A stretch of 64,000 bases of DNA from Sulfurospirillum deleyianum DSM 6946. Lineage in GTDB: Bacteria > Campylobacterota > Campylobacteria > Campylobacterales > Sulfurospirillaceae. The DNA lies in assembly GCF_000024885.1 (NCBI RefSeq), contig NC_013512.1, positions 1,612,001-1,676,000 on the forward strand, written 5' to 3'. This document shows positions 19,074 to 30,030 of the stretch, piece by piece. Below the pieces are notes generated by a model, which had not been told where the DNA came from, searched no databases, and was given only the letters and a program-made list of their open reading frames with translations. Every line of letters begins with the position of its first letter. Position 1 is the first letter of the stretch. Made by a program: the position numbers and the translations under genes.

Positions 19074-19466
19074 TTAATCCCTCGGCTCTTCATACGTGAT
19101 AACATGAGGTGCGTCACTTTTGATTTTGCTTTCACCCTCAAAAATAGCTTTTGCTTCAATGACAAGTTCTTTAGAGAAAACCTTACCTAAAAATTTTCCA
19201 CCCTCTAAAACTTCGACATTTTCACAATCCGCATTCCCCTCAAAGAGCCCATTCACAATCAAACGACTGGCATGAATCTCTCCTGATATACGTCCTTGTT
19301 TTCCAATGGTAACAATGCTATCAGAGAGCACTTTACCCACAATCTCACCATCGACATGTAAACGGGTTTGACAATTAAACACACCCTCTACTTTAGCTCC
19401 ACTGGCTATGATAGTGGTTTCAGAAGCGGGGATTGTGCATTGATCAGCTTTATTAAAGATTCCCAT
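19074..19466 (-). CDS. ccmA: Bactofilin (CcmA), cell-shape cytoskeletal protein
   Basis: A 130-residue bactofilin whose DUF583 beta-helix has repeats such as TTIIASGAKVEGVFNCQ, LHVDGEIVGKVLSDSIVTIG and RLIVNGLFEGNADCENVEVL. Bactofilins polymerise at the inner membrane and, in H. pylori, CcmA works with Csd1/Csd2 peptidases to give helical shape. I chose the ATG at 19466 (MGIFNKADQC), which has a GGAG/AAGAG Shine-Dalgarno. This start lies about 60 bases inside the upstream peptidase gene. A longer in-frame start (19517) is less likely. Confidence 0.92.
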   Translation of the reverse strand: MGIFNKADQCTIPASETTIIASGAKVEGVFNCQTRLHVDGEIVGKVLSDSIVTIGKQGRISGEIHASRLIVNGLFEGNADCENVEVLEGGKFLGKVFSKELVIEAKAIFEGESKIKSDAPHVITYEEPRD

Positions 19467-20305
19467 GTGACTCTCTTCTCCTTTGTAAAGATTTCCATAA
19501 AATTCGCACCACTCCATTGAACAAAGGGTGCTGGATCTAACGTACGACCAATAAACTTTATCTCATAATGCAAATGAGGACCCGTGGAGAGTCCTGTGTT
19601 TCCAGAGTAAGCAATCACATCACCCTTTTTAACAAACTGCCCCTCTTTCACAACCGCTTTATTCTGTAGATGAGCATAATAACTCTCAAATCCATAATTA
19701 TGACTGAGAGAAACGATATTGCCATACCCACTGTTTTGATGATACTTGATAAATTTAACAACCCCATCAGCAGGAGCTAAAATAGGCGTTCCAATAGACG
19801 CTCTAAAATCAAGTCCTGTGTGAAACTCTTTTCGTTTTAAAATAGGATTTTCTCTCCAACCAAATTTTGAAGAGATGCCATTGTGGGCGATTACTTCACC
19901 ACTTGGGATATTATCGAAAAATGTTTTTTGCTGAAGAATATTCAAATCCAACTCTTCTAGGCGAACGTCTAAAGACTCCTCTTCATTGACCCGCAATCCA
20001 ATGAGCTCTTCCATAGAACCAATCTTATCACGAATCGTTTCATACTCTTGCGCTTTTTCTGAAACCTTCGCTTGTAATTCTTCATTTTGAGCAATCAAAA
20101 GATTGCGTTCTTTGACGGCTTCTTCTTTTTTTGTCTCTAAATGCGATAACTCTTTGGTTAAAAATAAAATTACAAAACTACCGACTAAAATAACAAGTGC
20201 CACAAAAAGGGTAAAATATAAAAGAAATTTTTTAATCAGCTGATGCAATAAGAAATGACGTGAACCATGCACGTCTGAGATGGTTACGGTAAATCTATCT
20301 TTCAC
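19406..20305 (-). CDS. M23 (LytM) peptidoglycan endopeptidase, Csd1/Csd2-like
   Basis: A 299-residue envelope protein with an N-terminal membrane helix at about 27-50 (FLLYFTLFVALVILVGSFVI), a coiled coil at 52-125, and a C-terminal M23 domain. The zinc ligands look intact: HTGLD (H162, D166) and GPHLHYE (H244/H246), plus YYAHLQ (H212). This suggests an active D,D-endopeptidase. The position directly upstream of ccmA and downstream of folC matches H. pylori csd1/csd2, whose products cut peptide crosslinks to shape the cell. It overlaps ccmA by about 61 bases and folC by 4. Confidence 0.9.
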   Translation of the reverse strand: MKDRFTVTISDVHGSRHFLLHQLIKKFLLYFTLFVALVILVGSFVILFLTKELSHLETKKEEAVKERNLLIAQNEELQAKVSEKAQEYETIRDKIGSMEELIGLRVNEEESLDVRLEELDLNILQQKTFFDNIPSGEVIAHNGISSKFGWRENPILKRKEFHTGLDFRASIGTPILAPADGVVKFIKYHQNSGYGNIVSLSHNYGFESYYAHLQNKAVVKEGQFVKKGDVIAYSGNTGLSTGPHLHYEIKFIGRTLDPAPFVQWSGANFMEIFTKEKRVTWESLIKLINAQSPLLKPLS

Positions 20306-21453
20306 TTCACTCCTTTTAAAAAGGCTTCAACCACCGAAAAAGAACCAAAAACCAGATACTCTTTATCTGTTTCAATTCCATTAAAAGGTTGTGCTTCTAT
20401 GCCAAGTGCCAATGCAGCGGCATAAATATCTTCCCCAAACGCCGCACGAGGGCTTTGAATCTCAATCACCAAAAGCGTTTCTATGATGGGTTTTAAAATG
20501 ATTAAAATAGCTTTAAAATCTTTATCTTTATAGCTGTTATAGACCAAATGAACCTTTTTCCCGTCAAACGTTTGCGCCAAAGCCTGTGCCGCCATGGCAT
20601 TATGCCCCACATCCAGTGTCACATTGGGCAGAACTTTTTGGCAACGTCCTTGCAAAATATCTTCAACCCAGACATCTTGAGTTATATCATACCCTAGTAC
20701 TTTTAATGCACAGTACGCAGTTTTAAAATTCTCTTTCAAAAAGAAAGGTAAAGGTGATGAAACGAGTTTTTCTACGGGGGTAAAGCCTGTTTCATCCCAT
20801 ATTTTTTCTACATAAAAAACAGGATATTTACACGCTTCACTTCGCTTCTGAGCAATGGCATTCACCTCGTTAGCATACTGCTTTGCCACTACCATATCAT
20901 TGCAAACACTGTTAATTTTAGTGTGCGCAATCGCTTCAATCGTCTCACCCAAGAAAGCCTGATGGTCTAATCCAATCGGTGTAATAATAGAGAGTATTTT
21001 TGGAAAGACATTGGTCGCATCATACTCTCCACCCAGCCCAGCTTCTAAAATCACATACTCACAATTCGTGGAGAAAATAACCATAGCAAGAAGCGTTGTA
21101 TATTCAAAATAAGAAAGTGCCTCTGCCATCGCGGGAGATAGCCATGTTAAAAGCGTCTCGTGCGCCTTTTCAAGCACATCTTCTTCAACATCCCTTCCAT
21201 CCATCCAAATGCGTTCATTAAACTTTAAAATATGCGGAGAGGTATAATGCCCTACATGTAAACCTTGAGCACGCAATAAGGTCGCTAAAAAACGTCCCGT
21301 AGTGCCTTTCCCATTGGTACCTACAAGATGAATAATTTTAGGAAGTTTTGAAAAATACGAGCGAATACTCGCATAAGCGTTTGGCATTCTCTCATAATCA
21401 ATCACATCATAATAGAGCGGTTTAGTGGCTAAAAACGTTTCTAAAGAGGTCAT
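20302..21453 (-). CDS. folC: Folylpolyglutamate / dihydrofolate synthase
   Basis: Mur-ligase-fold enzyme that adds glutamate to folates. The P-loop is HLVGTNGKGTTGRFLAT near 41-57. EAGLGGEYDATNVF and ITPIGLDHQAFLGETIEAIA are family signatures. The 383-residue length is slightly short but complete. It overlaps both neighbours by four bases (ATGA), giving tight coupling in the long operon. A one-mismatch palindrome is near 21252 (read as GLHV). The folate-precursor genes pabB and pabC lie elsewhere in the window (42964-44491). Confidence 0.93.
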   Translation of the reverse strand: MTSLETFLATKPLYYDVIDYERMPNAYASIRSYFSKLPKIIHLVGTNGKGTTGRFLATLLRAQGLHVGHYTSPHILKFNERIWMDGRDVEEDVLEKAHETLLTWLSPAMAEALSYFEYTTLLAMVIFSTNCEYVILEAGLGGEYDATNVFPKILSIITPIGLDHQAFLGETIEAIAHTKINSVCNDMVVAKQYANEVNAIAQKRSEACKYPVFYVEKIWDETGFTPVEKLVSSPLPFFLKENFKTAYCALKVLGYDITQDVWVEDILQGRCQKVLPNVTLDVGHNAMAAQALAQTFDGKKVHLVYNSYKDKDFKAILIILKPIIETLLVIEIQSPRAAFGEDIYAAALALGIEAQPFNGIETDKEYLVFGSFSVVEAFLKGVK

Positions 21454-22994
21454 AACACAGGCATCACTTGATTTCGTCCAGCCTCTTTGGCTTTATACAA
21501 AAACGCATCCGCTGCACTAAGTGTCTCTTCTTTAGAGGTGTATTGCGAACGCTGTGCTACACCGCAACTCACCGTTACACTAATACGCTCATTTTTATAG
21601 AGAAACTTAAATTGTTCAACAATAGAGCGAATTTTATCGGCAAAATGAATCGCATGCACCAAATCGGTACTAGGAAGCACGACTAAAAACTCCTCTCCAC
21701 CATAGCGTCCCGCAAAATCAACCTGACGTACGTATTTGCGCAAAATTTTTCCCACAGTTGAGAGAATGACATCGCCTGCTTCATGTCCAAAGGTATCATT
21801 CACTCTTTTAAAATAGTCAATATCAATAAAACAGAGCGTATAATCAATCTTGTAACGCATAAATGCCTCTTCAACACGCCCTAATTCTGCACTTAAAGCT
21901 CGTTTAGTCGCAACATGCGTTAAAAAGTCAATTTTCACCTCTTGTTTTGCTGCCACTAAAGCAGATTCGAGTTTATTCACACGATTTTGTAATTTTGTAA
22001 TGGTTTCTTGATTGCTGAGCATTTTATCGTGTAAGGTTTTTGTTTCGCTCTCTAAAGAAGAGGCGATATGTAAAAGTTTTGCATGCACCGTTTCAAAACT
22101 ATCGTGTGAAAAATTGATGTTTTGTAAATCAGCTCTGATTCCTTTGACCTGTTCATGACTGACTTGGCTGCTTTGAATCAACTCAGCAATACGTTTATTA
22201 ATCTCATCTAAGACTTTATCGAGTACAGAGACCTTTTTTTGGACTTCTGCTTTATCGAGTTCAATACGCTTGCCAATCAAAGAACGAATCTCTTTTTGAA
22301 GAGCAGGTGTACCTAAGGCATCAGGAGACTGACGTAATTCTGCGCTAATATTTGCCAACTCATCATTCATACCTGAAGCAATAGAGGGGACAAGAGAAGC
22401 GATAATCAAAGGCACAAGCGCCTTATAAAGCTCACCGCTCGTATCTTTGTCTAAGAGTTTGACAATATCCCTCACCATCATTTCCAAATCATCTTTATTC
22501 ACATGCCCATAAAGGTCTAGTTTCTTCAGATAATGATCATTATAGTTAGAGATAAAGTCAAACCATTTATCTTTCACCAATTCAATAGACTGAATATTTT
22601 GATGAAAATCAATCCGCTCCAAAGAGGCATTAGCAAGGCTGGTTGCTTTAGCGTCGTGCAGGAGCGTAATGGCTTGCAATAAACGCTTGGACAAAAGATT
22701 CAGCGCATTGATCATTTTAATTGCGTCACCTTCATTCACACGATTGACTCGTGCGACTAAAAAAGAGAGCAACTCATCAAGGGAAGCGATATTAAACCGT
22801 TTCATATCTGCTATCACACTTGATTCTAATTTTTTAGTATATTTGTCAACTTTTTGACAATCTTCAACAATTACCCCTTTTTGCTTTGCCACTTTACAAA
22901 AAACAGCAGCATAATTGTCAGGGGTTAAATTAAGGTGTTCAGCTTTGACTCTTTCTAAAGCTTCTTTGATAATTTCATTAATGGTTGTTGCCAT
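21450..22994 (-). CDS. Diguanylate cyclase (GGDEF) with long helical N-terminal region
   Basis: A 514-residue soluble protein. Residues 1-345 are mostly helical with no recognised sensor domain, and 250-350 looks like coiled coil. The GGDEF domain covers about 350-514, with active-site GGEEF at 432-436, the metal-binding IDIDYFKRVND, and an intact inhibitory site RQVD at 423-426, five residues before the motif. It should make c-di-GMP under product feedback. Start 22994 (MATTINEI) has an AAAGGG Shine-Dalgarno; a longer frame starts at 23033. It lies between lptE and folC in an envelope/shape operon. Confidence 0.9.
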   Translation of the reverse strand: MATTINEIIKEALERVKAEHLNLTPDNYAAVFCKVAKQKGVIVEDCQKVDKYTKKLESSVIADMKRFNIASLDELLSFLVARVNRVNEGDAIKMINALNLLSKRLLQAITLLHDAKATSLANASLERIDFHQNIQSIELVKDKWFDFISNYNDHYLKKLDLYGHVNKDDLEMMVRDIVKLLDKDTSGELYKALVPLIIASLVPSIASGMNDELANISAELRQSPDALGTPALQKEIRSLIGKRIELDKAEVQKKVSVLDKVLDEINKRIAELIQSSQVSHEQVKGIRADLQNINFSHDSFETVHAKLLHIASSLESETKTLHDKMLSNQETITKLQNRVNKLESALVAAKQEVKIDFLTHVATKRALSAELGRVEEAFMRYKIDYTLCFIDIDYFKRVNDTFGHEAGDVILSTVGKILRKYVRQVDFAGRYGGEEFLVVLPSTDLVHAIHFADKIRSIVEQFKFLYKNERISVTVSCGVAQRSQYTSKEETLSAADAFLYKAKEAGRNQVMPVL

Positions 22995-23493
22995 TGCGCA
23001 ACCCTTTAATTGCAATTTTAGAAACAAACTCATCTAAAGAATCTGATGCCGCTGCTCGAATTGCCTCGAAGCGATTCGAATCAGAGATAACACTATTGGA
23101 TTCGATGGAGAAGTCATACTCTCCTGAAACCGTTAATTTTTCGACTTTTTTCGCAGCATTTTCATACTCAATCACAAGCGTCACGGTTGTTTTATAGGCA
23201 ATAACATATCCATAAATATCATAAATTAAAGGAGAAAAAGAGATCGATTGAATCTTTACATGTAACGTACTATCCGCCTCTTCTTTACTCACTAACTTTG
23301 CACTAAAACGATTAACGACTGCTTCATTGACAGCATCTTTAATGATTACACTGTTTCTTGGATCTTGCCTAGAGATCGTTACGTCTGCATAAATTTTCTC
23401 CCCAAGTGCTCTTTTTGCATAATAAGAAGAGGGTTTATACCCACATCCAACCATAAAAAAAGCAATCAAGAGTCCAAGAAAAAGTTGTTTCAT
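22978..23493 (-). CDS. lptE: LptE-like LPS-assembly lipoprotein
   Basis: A 171-residue lipoprotein with signal peptide MKQLFLGLLIAFFMVGCGY and lipobox Cys17. The small alpha/beta body fits an LptE/RlpB-type plug of the LptD outer-membrane LPS translocon. The identification rests on size, lipobox, an internal ADVTISRQDPRNSV beta-strand region, and its place directly downstream of leuS, as in other Campylobacterota. Sequence conservation in this family is low. It overlaps the diguanylate cyclase start by 17 bases. Confidence 0.75.
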   Translation of the reverse strand: MKQLFLGLLIAFFMVGCGYKPSSYYAKRALGEKIYADVTISRQDPRNSVIIKDAVNEAVVNRFSAKLVSKEEADSTLHVKIQSISFSPLIYDIYGYVIAYKTTVTLVIEYENAAKKVEKLTVSGEYDFSIESNSVISDSNRFEAIRAAASDSLDEFVSKIAIKGLRNGNNH

Positions 23494-23494
23494 T

Positions 23495-25942
23495 TTACTT
23501 TACCACCAAGTTAATCAATTTATTAGGGACATAAATCTCTTTAATCACTTCACTGCCCTCTAACCATTTTGCAGCACTCTCTTTGCCACGTCTTAGGGCT
23601 TCCTCTTTTGAGATAGAGGTTTCAACTTCAATTTCAGAGCGTTTTTTACCATTCACGGTTACGGCAAGTATCATACTCTCTTCTACAAAAACTTCTTCTT
23701 TGATGGTAATGGGTGAAAAATTCGCACACCCAAACAGTGTTTCGCTCATCTCCCAGCATACATGCGGAATAATCGGTTCTAAAACATTTAAAAGCACAAA
23801 ATATCCCTCACTCCACACATTCGCATCGTTTTGATCACTTAGAGCATTGAGCGCTTCCATACATGCCGCAATCAATGTATTAAAGGTATATCCACCCTCA
23901 AAAATCTCATTCGATTTTTTCAATGCTTCATACACTTTTTTACGAGCATATTTTGACTCTTTAGAAAGTGTTGCATGATTAATGTCTGGAATCTTTTTAC
24001 ATGTAAAAGCATTTTCACTCTTTTGCGCAAAGCGTTTTAAGAAACGAAACGCTCCTTCAACCGCACTGTCATTCCACTCCAACTCTTTTTGAGGAGGCGC
24101 TGCAAATAAAATAAACAGACGTGCCGTATCCGCTCCATAGGTCTTAATAATAGCATCAGGATCAACGGTGTTGCCTTTACTTTTACTCATCTTCGAGCCA
24201 TCTTTAAGCACCATACCTTGGGTTAAAAGATTGGCAAACGGCTCATCGGTATTGACATAGCCTAAATCACGAAGCACTTTGGTAAAAAAGCGTGCATACA
24301 AAAGATGTAAAATCGCATGCTCAATACCCCCAATATATTGGTCTACGTTCATCCAATAATTGGCACTCTCTTTATCAAAAGGAACATCATTCCACAAGGA
24401 CGGGTCTGTGGTATAGCGTAAAAAATACCAACTGGATTGGAAAAAAGTATCCATGGTATCGGTTTCACGAATCGCATTCTCACCACAACACGGGCACGTT
24501 GTATATTTCCATGTTGGATGTTTATCCAAAGGATTGCCTTCACCTTTAATTTCAACATCATCAGGCAAGGCAACAGGAAGATTTTCAAATTTTTCAGGAA
24601 CCAGTCCGCATTTGGGACAATGAATCATCGGAATTGGCGCACCCCAATAACGCTGACGGCTAATTCCCCAATCACGCAATTTGTAATTAATGACTTTGGT
24701 ACCCATTTTCTGTGCTTCAAAATGAGCAATAATGGCTTTTTGAGCCTCTTTCGATGCAAGACCACTAAACTCAGCAGAGTTCACAAGTGTACCGTATTCA
24801 GTCGTTGCGCATGTACCATCAAAAGGTGTGTTACTCTCAATACTTTGAATAATGGGTAAATTATATTTGCTTGCAAATTCAAAATCACGCTCATCATGGG
24901 CTGGAACTGCCATAACAGCACCCCCACCGTATTCGATTAAGACAAAATTTGCTACCCAAACAGGCACTTTTTTACCTGTTAAAGGATGCATGACCTCTAT
25001 CTCTAAACTCACACCCTCTTTAGGTGCTTGAGCACGCTCACGTGCCCCCACACGTTGCATCGCTTTAATCTGCGCAATCTTCTCTTCACTTAAAAGTTTA
25101 TGCTCAATCAAATAGTTCACAATCGCATGTTCAGGCGCTAAAGCAGAATAACTCACCCCATAAATCGTGTCAGGACGCGTGGTAAAAACTTTATAACTCT
25201 CAAACTGATGAGCAAGTTTTGCCTTAGCATCATCACTTAAGTTAAACGAAAATTCCAACCCTTCACTGCGTCCAATCCAATTTTCTTGCATGGTTAAAAC
25301 TTGATTGGGCCAACCCGCTTTGAGTTTTTCACAATCATCAAGTAACTCTTGAGCATACTGTGTGATTTTGAGGTAGTAACCGGGGAGCAAACGCTGTTCT
25401 ACTGGGTTATCACACCTCCAACAACATCCCTCTTCGACTTGCTCATTGGCAAGAACAGTTTGGCAAGTGTTACACCAATTTAGCGTGGCACTTTTTTGAT
25501 ACACCAAGCCTTTATTAAACATCTCAATAAAAATACGCTGTTCATGTTTCGTATAAAGCACATCGCTGGCGGCAAACTCTCGTTTTTTAGAAAAAGAGAG
25601 TCCCAAAGAAGCAAGTTCTTTACGCATATAATCAATATTTTCATACGTCCATTTTTTCGGATGTACCCCATGCTTAATCGCCGCATTTTCTGCTGGCATA
25701 CCAAAACTATCCCAACCAATAGGGTGCAGTACATTAAAGCCATTTTTACGATGATGTCGTGCGATCGCATCCCCAATCGTATAGTTACGCACGTGTCCCA
25801 TATGAATACGCCCACTAGGATAAGGAAACATACTTAAAATATATTTTTTTGCTTTGCTAAAATCAGTGGATGGCTCAAACGCTTGGGTTTCATCCCATGT
25901 TTTTTGCCATTTTTTCTCAATTTCTAAAGGATTGTACTGCAT
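23495..25942 (-). CDS. leuS: Leucyl-tRNA synthetase
   Basis: Class I aminoacyl-tRNA synthetase, 815 residues. The HIGH-type motif is [19 protein letters not shown] near 42-60 and the KMSKS motif is intact in [17 protein letters not shown]. The editing insert contains [13 protein letters not shown], and [15 protein letters not shown] is typical of LeuRS. Two CxxC zinc-like pairs appear in CNTCQTVL / CCWRCDNP and in CPKCGLVP / CPCCGENA. It sits between secF and lptE, an order shared with H. pylori and C. jejuni. Confidence 0.98.
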
Positions 25943-28515: not shown

Positions 28516-28783
28516 CGATTTTCTTTGAAATATAATCGCGTGAAACTTTAACAATGACACCTTCATCATTAAGCTTAACTTTGATAGAATCCTCTTCAGG
28601 TTTCACAACTTCACAGATTAACCCACCATTGGTAATGACTTTATCACCTTTTTTAAGGGCATCAATCATCTCTTTGTGCTTTTTAACCTGCTTTTGTTGT
28701 GGACGAATCACCAGAAAATAAAAAATCGCAAAAAGAACAACGAGTGGAAGTAAAGAAGAAATTAAATTTGCAGAACCTTGCAT
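28508..28783 (-). CDS. yajC: Preprotein translocase subunit YajC
   Basis: A 91-residue single-pass membrane protein of the SecDF-YajC complex. The helix LISSLLPLVVLFAIFYFLVI is followed by the diagnostic RPQQKQVKKHKEMIDALKKGDKV and ITNGGLICEV. It is the first gene of the twelve-gene minus-strand run. Its promoter must lie inside or beside the start of the divergent lnt. Confidence 0.97.
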   Translation of the reverse strand: MQGSANLISSLLPLVVLFAIFYFLVIRPQQKQVKKHKEMIDALKKGDKVITNGGLICEVVKPEEDSIKVKLNDEGVIVKVSRDYISKKIDE

Positions 28784-30030
28784 GGAAATCCTTTGTTAGA
28801 AAAATTTTTGATATTTATTTTACCCGCATTTATATAATAAAAGCCTTTGTTATAGCACTTTGCCTTTGTGCTTTTATTTACTTTAGTTATTTTGAGCTCA
28901 CCTCTTTACTTCTCAATTCCCTTTTCGCTTTTCTAGGATTTTACCTTCTTTTAGGGGAGCATCGTGCAGTATGGTTTTGGAGTGGTTTCTTTACAGGTAT
29001 TTTATGGTTTTATTGGATTAGTTTTAGTTTTGTCTATTACGACCTTGCTTTTCTTATTCCTTTCGTGATTCTTGGTGTTGCCCTGATCTATGCGTTTTTA
29101 TTTTGGCTGATAGGTAAACTCTCTTCTTGCATCTATGTTCAAGCGCCTCTTCTGTTTGGTCTTAATTTTGTTGATCCTTTTGGGTTTAATTGGCTCAAAC
29201 TTCAACTCACGCTCTTAGACAGTTATTTTTCAACAACCTCTCTTGTCTTTGGCTTATTTTTACTGAGTACTGCACTCCTTAAAGCACTTCCAAAATGGTT
29301 TAAAACCCTCTCTATCGCACCTTTAATCCTTGCACTCCTGTGGCAACCCCCTACACATTTAACACCACCTGTGTTGGATGTTGCGTTACCCACTATACAT
29401 GTCCCTCAATCACAGCGTTGGGATGCTGCGTATCAAAAAGAGGCAATTACGCTTAATTTTTCATTGATTGAAGAGGCTATCGCAAACAAAAAAGAGTTGA
29501 TTATTTTGCCAGAGAGCGCTTTTCCACTCTACCTAAACCTAGCACCTAAACTCATAGACGCACTGAAAACCTATTCACAGAAAATTGCGATTGTTACAGG
29601 CGCACTGACCTATGAAGAAAATCAAGGATTTTTTAACTCATCCTACTTTTTTCATCAAGGAGAGATGCAGATCGCTCATAAAGTGGTGTTGGTTCCTTTT
29701 GGAGAGGAAGTACCTTTCCCTGCGTTTATGATCACGATCATTAATCAACTCTTTTTCGATGGGGCAAAAGATTATCAAAAGGCAAAAGAACCGTTTGATT
29801 TTGTGATAAATAAAGCCTCTTTTAGAAACGCAATCTGTTTTGAAGCAACGACTGATACACTTTTTAAAGGAAATCCAAAACAGATGATAGCCATTAGCAA
29901 TAACGCATGGTTTTATCCTTCTATTGAACAAACCTTACAACATTTACTGCTACGCTACTACGCAAAGAAGTATCAAACGGTGATTTACCACAGTGCCAAC
30001 AGTGGTAAAAGTGGAGTGATTTTACCGTAA
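28768..30030 (+). CDS. lnt: Apolipoprotein N-acyltransferase
   Basis: Adds the third acyl chain to lipoproteins at the inner membrane. The N-terminal half has about six membrane helices, and the C-terminal half is a nitrilase-like domain. Candidate catalytic triad: Glu in IILPESAFPLY, Lys near HKVVLVPFGEEVPF, and Cys in FRNAICFEAT. The start is unresolved because no in-frame ATG exists. I used TTG 28768, which follows AAGAAGAAA; GTG 28744 and GTG 28699 also exist, and all overlap yajC on the other strand. From 28801 on the protein is clearly Lnt. Confidence 0.88.
   Translation: MQNLAWKSFVRKIFDIYFTRIYIIKAFVIALCLCAFIYFSYFELTSLLLNSLFAFLGFYLLLGEHRAVWFWSGFFTGILWFYWISFSFVYYDLAFLIPFVILGVALIYAFLFWLIGKLSSCIYVQAPLLFGLNFVDPFGFNWLKLQLTLLDSYFSTTSLVFGLFLLSTALLKALPKWFKTLSIAPLILALLWQPPTHLTPPVLDVALPTIHVPQSQRWDAAYQKEAITLNFSLIEEAIANKKELIILPESAFPLYLNLAPKLIDALKTYSQKIAIVTGALTYEENQGFFNSSYFFHQGEMQIAHKVVLVPFGEEVPFPAFMITIINQLFFDGAKDYQKAKEPFDFVINKASFRNAICFEATTDTLFKGNPKQMIAISNNAWFYPSIEQTLQHLLLRYYAKKYQTVIYHSANSGKSGVILP

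Follow-up and report, generated by a model that had tools for sequence, protein, structure and literature searches.

An apparently intact diguanylate cyclase gene of Sulfurospirillum deleyianum is a probable flagellum-linked ortholog of the Campylobacter swimming-speed determinant VidB

Results

A predicted cyclase gene between lptE and folC

We analyzed a stretch of 64,000 nucleotides from Sulfurospirillum deleyianum (hereafter the window; G000:C1:1612001-1676000), in which a gene for a predicted diguanylate cyclase, related to the Campylobacter jejuni swimming-speed determinant VidB, is placed between lptE and folC. The genome (G000) consists of one contig of 2,306,351 bp, and the accessible part of the paper that describes it carries the keyword 'motile' (PMC3035281). 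Genomes, loci, families and genera are denoted below by our own handles (G, L, f and g). The gene forms part of an operon-like block with the order leuS-lptE-GGDEF-folC-M23-bactofilin, whose features are as follows (window positions; lengths in amino acids, aa).

21450..22994, reverse strand: VidB-like diguanylate cyclase gene, 514 aa, stop included in the coordinates, ATG at 22994
22308..22994, reverse strand: N-terminal helical region, residues 1-229 (A3 profile; blastp to VidB from residue 1)
21936..22307, reverse strand: predicted long helical stalk leading into GGDEF, residues 230-353 (model helices 230-291 and 298-381; SiaD match 267-510)
21468..21935, reverse strand: GGDEF domain, residues 354-509 (PF00990; Foldseek matches to solved diguanylate cyclases)
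21687..21701, reverse strand: GGEEF active-site motif, residues 432-436 (residue scoring)
21717..21728, reverse strand: inhibitory site (I-site) RxxD, residues 423-426 (residue scoring)
22978..23493, reverse strand: lptE, upstream neighbour (PF04390, E 2.1e-11)
23495..25942, reverse strand: upstream open reading frame of the block that we take to be leuS from its sequence (conserved order)
20302..21453, reverse strand: folC, downstream neighbour (TIGR01499, E 7.6e-77)
19406..20305, reverse strand: M23 peptidase (PF01551, E 3e-33; syntenic with C. jejuni CJJ81176_1105)
19074..19517, reverse strand: bactofilin (PF04519, E 2.8e-22; syntenic with CJJ81176_1104)

The sequence AAAGGG lies 7 nt 5' of the ATG at 22994, and an alternative in-frame start at 23033 would give a longer frame. 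An earlier note on this DNA had described a GGDEF protein with intact active and inhibitory sites, encoded with overlapping ends between lptE and folC and two genes upstream of the M23 peptidase and bactofilin, and this description holds in full: the gene shares 17 bp with lptE (22978-22994) and 4 bp with folC (21450-21453), the order of the downstream genes is as described, and PF00990 matches residues 354-509 with E 3.4e-39. The protein has the usual residue at 17 of 17 scored active-site and I-site positions, including R423-x-x-D426 of the I-site; these positions are a set that we take to represent PleD-type cyclases. With its GG[D/E]EF motif, metal and GTP residues and the K/R of the C-terminal helix, it is apparently a catalytically intact cyclase. 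Scans for sigma-70 promoters and terminators were uninformative (46 and 13 sites versus 37.4 and 10.9 in shuffles).

The gene is an ortholog of C. jejuni vidB

As the reference for comparison we used CJJ81176_1107, which we take to be the gene named Cj1089c. According to the accessible text of its description, its product VidB, a protein of 465 aa found via suppressors of a vidA mutant, is a brake- or clutch-like determinant of swimming speed (PMC10790790). Its C-terminus resembles diguanylate cyclases fairly weakly, binding of GTP or cyclic diguanosine monophosphate (c-di-GMP) and cyclase activity were not detected in the assays described there, and many of the suppressors were frameshifts at repeat tracts (PMC10790790).

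Scanning named genomes yielded 21 loci for comparison. One of them, from C. jejuni GP013 (L191), has an open reading frame between lptE and folC that starts with GTG, encodes 465 aa and bears the published residues L16, E221, S363 and W386, as well as eight A at 759-766; in place of the published AG tract, L191 has GGAGAGAG at 951-958 and is thus not letter-identical there. We identify this frame as VidB because its length, the published residues, synteny and end-to-end similarity agree. Other records labelled C. jejuni misfit: L181 is of a lari-like type, L187 encodes 470 aa without W386, and in L197 (label C. jejuni subsp. jejuni 414) the vidB frame is broken into two overlapping frames (L197:5980-7396). 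Of the 21 loci, 17 show the full order leuS-lptE-vidB-folC-M23-bactofilin; contig ends cut three others, and one belongs to Comamonas.

The window protein aligns by blastp with the L191 protein over residues 1-475 and 1-432, respectively (E 3.9e-30, 23% identity). Common to both are the slot within leuS-lptE-X-folC, similarity from end to end including the helical N-terminal region, and a C-terminus of GGDEF fold. They differ in that VidB lacks the active site and the I-site, whereas the window protein has all 17 scored residues, and in that VidB is 49 residues shorter. Judged by slot and alignment, the window gene is an intact ortholog of VidB, not VidB in the narrow sense.

This assignment bears on the N-terminal part, in which the earlier note had recognized no known sensor domain and had suspected a new input module. 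The first point stands: for residues 1-345, Pfam gives weak coiled-coil-like matches only and no family over its cut-off, and those NCBIfam models that extend far into this part are SMC-like coiled coils. The second does not, as the region is common to VidB. We rejected an orphan sensor domain, all Pfam, NCBIfam and PDB matches to the N-terminus being at coiled-coil level; by its alignments, the region is part of the VidB family. Plasmid-borne relatives of residues 1-344 were not found at E 0.01. AlphaFold2 models of the window protein and of VidB (mean predicted local distance difference test, pLDDT, 64.9 and 75.7) place the first N-terminal helices in the same order and predict a complete GGDEF fold in both proteins, VidB included; the N-terminus is predicted to be all-helical with low confidence. 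Foldseek returns SiaD as the best match for both models. A separate fold search with the N-terminus was dropped, since the model was too uncertain.

The Comamonas protein (L201:5944-7506, 521 residues) carries a TPENY N-terminal segment like that of VidB (about 31 residues, 21 bits), and its C-terminal end aligns with GGDEF without the motif, as far as the alignment goes. It is possibly a parallel outside the phylum. Because the segment is too short, homology of the whole region is not claimed, and we rejected the protein as a whole-region homologue.

Position across the order

The N-terminus (353 aa) is matched in 87 of 100 sampled genomes, that of S. deleyianum included. In folC-anchored regions of 54 genomes from other families of the order, a scripted check found the gene with lptE and folC as its neighbours in 36. 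The position is thus not special, contrary to the earlier note, which had itself named a wide spread of the gene in this place as refuting its reading. Elsewhere, the locus is split over two contigs (G098), the gene resides at another place in the genome (G047, G066, G093) or beside folC on the opposite strand (G080), or a short GGDEF frame is present near a contig end (G045). No gene was found at the folC locus in the remaining 12 (G048, G050, G051, G054, G061, G067, G069, G078, G082, G092, G095, G097); three of these, the f9 genomes G051, G069 and G097, have a weaker match elsewhere. The earlier remark that Helicobacter pylori keeps the locus without a GGDEF gene is consistent with our data at the level of the family, f14, presumably Helicobacteraceae, in which several genera are without a match and others have one. 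A wider synteny count over 157 genomes gave 82 intact, 4 nearly intact and 55 degenerate copies (the latter including the interrupted-frame records G003/L023 and L197) and 16 genomes with none, but it is biased because many loci were fetched via the gene.

Presence of the gene follows the flagellum

A profile built from 24 N-termini (A3) matched 278 of 397 genomes of the phylum, and FliG_C, searched in the same genomes, matched 345. Gene and FliG occur together in 275 genomes, the gene without FliG in 3, FliG without the gene in 70, and neither in 49 (Fisher, 5e-26). By genus, the corresponding numbers are 49, 1, 8 and 10 (p 1e-6), or 46, 0, 11 and 11 in a strict count with g23, g45, g67 and g59 moved to gene-negative. 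The lists behind the tables by genome and by genus were merged by hand, negatives without individual listing number 99 for the gene and 32 for FliG, and the p-values ignore kinship. Weak A3 matches between E 1e-4 and 1e-3 (G078, G092, G246, G359, G373, G419, G251, G210), which probably reflect coiled-coil chance, pass the threshold and count as gene-positive among the 397 genomes; G101 (E 2.5e-16) was counted as positive without regard to locus position.

The pattern recurs within families. In f11 (Campylobacteraceae), 31 of 81 genomes have no gene match; FliG is absent from 29 of these (the exceptions being G172 and G239, the latter with a partial match) and present in 12 of 12 gene-positive genomes tested, some of the FliG-less genomes being incomplete (g60, 57%; g65, 66%). 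In f6, G471 alone is gene-positive among the matches listed, and G471 has FliG. Co-loss of this kind might conceivably stem from shared ancestry and genome reduction instead of function, with the position kept as the block is conserved. The listed FliG-less genomes indeed cluster into about four groups (f6; f11 g59/g64, with two incomplete genera; f17 g76; f9 g80) besides G262 and G438, and those of f11 have few GGDEF matches overall. Nevertheless, the gene persists in flagellate relatives of these groups, namely G471 in f6, most of the f17 genomes listed and the flagellate members of f11, and its loss in f6 has left lptE and folC together. We regard an explanation by ancestry as improbable.

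Given the downstream genes, the gene might alternatively be an envelope or cell-shape regulator, a cyclase that senses or controls the co-encoded M23 peptidase-bactofilin module, as the earlier note had implied. The overlapping genes of one operon-like block would fit this idea, and the bactofilin and M23 genes of C. jejuni influence cell shape according to the accessible text of PMC10151779, in which '1107' appears only within reference page numbers and DOIs. However, in 80 genomes hand-picked for contrast rather than at random, bactofilin is independent of the gene, being present in 39 of 53 gene-bearing and 20 of 27 gene-less genomes (p = 1); a bactofilin match over the cut-off is missing in 14 of the 53, including G093, whose match (E 1.8e-4) falls below it. 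FliG in the same set (77 genomes, G064, G070 and G091 being excluded) is present in 48 and absent from 2 gene-bearing genomes, and present in 10 and absent from 17 gene-less ones; G078 and G092 are counted as gene-negative here. In the genomes sampled, the gene thus goes with the flagellum and not with bactofilin. Moreover, the known VidB phenotype concerns swimming speed (PMC10790790, accessible text). A cell-shape role, for which co-occurrence with bactofilin gave no association, thus appears very unlikely to us, and this part of the earlier proposal is not supported.

Two f9 genomes (G051, L090:2813-5319; G069, L227:2927-5460) hold a shortened copy with intact active site beside M23-bactofilin and away from leuS-lptE-folC, which speaks for a cell-shape role; in a third (G084, L228) the shortened copy lacks this adjacency.

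The active site decayed repeatedly

Most intact copies surveyed have the identical 17-residue set; g41 has GGDEF, and the I-site is missing from L131, L138 and L143. Loss of the set is seen in Campylobacter g28, in part of g37, in f14 g18 and one f14 g49 genome, and also in most f15 copies, f21, f23, f5 and one f18 genome; in four f14 g47 genomes, a single core residue is missing. A LeuS+FolC tree, made with FastTree and midpoint-rooted without a support test, covers 57 loci, of which 34 have an intact copy, 13 a degenerate one and 10 none. In this tree, intact relatives stand between g28, the g37 pair and f14 g18, and f15, f18 and f21 make up at least one further case. Because intact relatives separate the decayed lineages on this tree, we count at least four apparently separate decays, and more if those of f5, f15, f21 and f23 are separate; intact G091 within f18 and intact copies inside g37 add to the count. 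In g37 (Campylobacteraceae), intact and decayed sites coexist (L166, L168, L177 and L180 versus L069, L082, L170 and L179), making this genus a good place for dating the loss. Three f15 genomes carry two VidB-like copies each (G057, L128 and L140; G159, L127 and L139; G157, L129 and L138), of which the first has a badly decayed active site and the second a better kept one, whose core is intact in G157 and of GSGEF type in G057 and G159.

For the decayed GGDEF-like part, 10 pairs give a ratio of nonsynonymous to synonymous substitutions (dN/dS) of 0.04-0.18, with dS near saturation in some of them, versus 0-0.05 in 5 intact pairs. Since these values imply purifying selection, the decayed domain is not junk. 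In the alignment, S363, a suppressor residue of VidB, corresponds to residue 406 of the window protein, within GHxxGD, and S363G leaves a normal protein level but overexpression no longer slows cells (PMC10790790, accessible text), which suggests that the pseudo-GGDEF part of VidB is needed for braking.

VidA relatives and a further reading frame

The VidA-VidB combination is called unique to Campylobacter in the accessible text of PMC10790790. The C. jejuni VidA gene (L203:9522-10097) matches PDB 3bnv, 'Cj0977', with E 7e-91, and relatives occur in 315 of the 397 genomes, with a single match in f9 among the matches listed (G284). The S. deleyianum genome has one as well:

L224:3845-4387 = G000:C1:1361844-1362386, forward strand: VidA (Cj0977) relative, 180 aa, 45% identity, match G000:C1:1361919-1362356

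As in C. jejuni, it follows what is presumably a cmoB-like gene, and what we take to be a dipeptidase-like gene is nearby. By similarity, VidA relatives thus exist outside Campylobacter, at odds with the published statement, although common family membership does not prove the same function. Because several FliG-less genomes have matches (e.g. G048, G067, G318), the VidA family is broader than motor control, and we rejected VidA as a motility marker.

Apart from these genes, a 443-aa frame at 28699-30030 of the window (forward strand) lies opposite the sec/lpt block and has no Pfam match at E 1e-5.

Discussion

We consider it probable, with some reserve, that the window gene is an intact VidB ortholog representing an ancestral flagellum-linked diguanylate cyclase, which was reduced to a non-catalytic brake in Campylobacter. 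Its co-loss with the flagellum points to a role in swimming. We infer a scenario whereby the helical N-terminus and the stalk work at or close to the flagellar motor and determine its output, as a brake or clutch would. The stalk would pair two GGDEF domains, such that c-di-GMP is made at the motor within limits set by the I-site and couples the state of the motor to motility control. With a shrinking c-di-GMP network, catalysis may then have been lost several times and the pseudo-GGDEF domain kept within a c-di-GMP-independent brake, as published for VidB; Campylobacter would have lost the enzyme but kept the brake.

Several observations weigh against this scenario. The gene is dispensable for flagella, because 70 of 345 FliG-bearing genomes lack it, and the FliG-less G262 (E 4e-25) and G438 (E 6e-32) retain a clear homolog, the third such genome being G210 (E 9e-4). 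Because the co-loss rests on about four groups, the p-values overstate independence. In some FliG-less genomes the loss is not specific to this gene, because few or no GGDEF matches remain: none in G082, G327, G329 and G335, one in G288, and one to three in each of nine f11 genomes searched. The decayed domain appears less constrained than the intact ones, the shortened f9 copies keep the link to cell shape open, and VidA matches are not confined to FliG-bearing genomes. Cyclase activity of the window protein is predicted from its residues, and its structure model is of low confidence. For VidB itself, the accessible text reports that interaction with FliG, MotA or MotB was not detected, argues from instantaneous speed shifts that a second messenger is unlikely, and finds no consistent effect of CbrR, the only predicted C. 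jejuni cyclase (PMC10790790).

Alternatively, the window protein may be an ordinary cytoplasmic diguanylate cyclase that feeds general c-di-GMP pools, the VidB brake being a later novelty of Campylobacter after catalysis was lost and the flagellar link being indirect. c-di-GMP controls motility in general, this genome holds 33 GGDEF matches, and the active site is kept in many lineages; the failure to detect a motor contact of VidB and the published argument against second-messenger control would also be accounted for. However, several FliG-less genomes lack this gene but hold other GGDEF matches (7 in G048, 10 in G067, 9 in G095, 27 in G309, 13 in G322, 21 in G318). Because these genomes keep 7-27 of them, loss of the gene is not just overall loss of c-di-GMP signalling. 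Together with the conservation of the N-terminus in intact and decayed forms, this makes the alternative rather unlikely in our view.

A bolder version of the flagellum-linked cyclase, which we hold to be doubtful but worth stating, is that the intact ortholog sits on the motor, senses load or viscosity directly and converts it into c-di-GMP on the spot, being enzyme and brake at once. VidB of Campylobacter would then be the remnant left after the enzyme was silenced. A mechanosensory cyclase of this kind is not known for flagellar motors, although no search aimed at one was made. In a literature search at the level of titles and the starts of abstracts, with subscription papers mostly outside it, none of the papers listed connects VidB with intact orthologs or with co-loss of the flagellum. 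The intact orthologs would show the probable origin of VidB, which was published without a mechanism, provide assayable enzymes with the same scaffold, and tie the VidB family to flagella across the order. They bear on whether c-di-GMP acts at the high-torque motor of Campylobacterota, and on how this was lost in Campylobacter.

How does the predicted architecture compare with known systems? SiaD of Pseudomonas aeruginosa, whose activator is SiaC, likewise has a helical stalk before an intact GGDEF domain and is the top Foldseek match (7e6g, E 1.1e-11). The NCBIfam match reaches 154.9 bits, far below the equivalog cut-off of 290, and because it starts at residue 267, nothing in SiaD corresponds to the first ~266 residues. 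The DgcB proteins of Caulobacter and Bdellovibrio also combine a coiled coil with GGDEF (Foldseek 6ttr, 6hbz), but their alignments span ~140-194 columns, that is, stalk and GGDEF. A functional parallel is offered by the Escherichia coli flagellar brakes and Bacillus subtilis clutches, presumably YcgR and EpsE, which reduce motor output. The VidB authors draw this comparison themselves, and the accessible text describes most such brakes and clutches as c-di-GMP-dependent (PMC10790790); the window protein would differ from them in making c-di-GMP.

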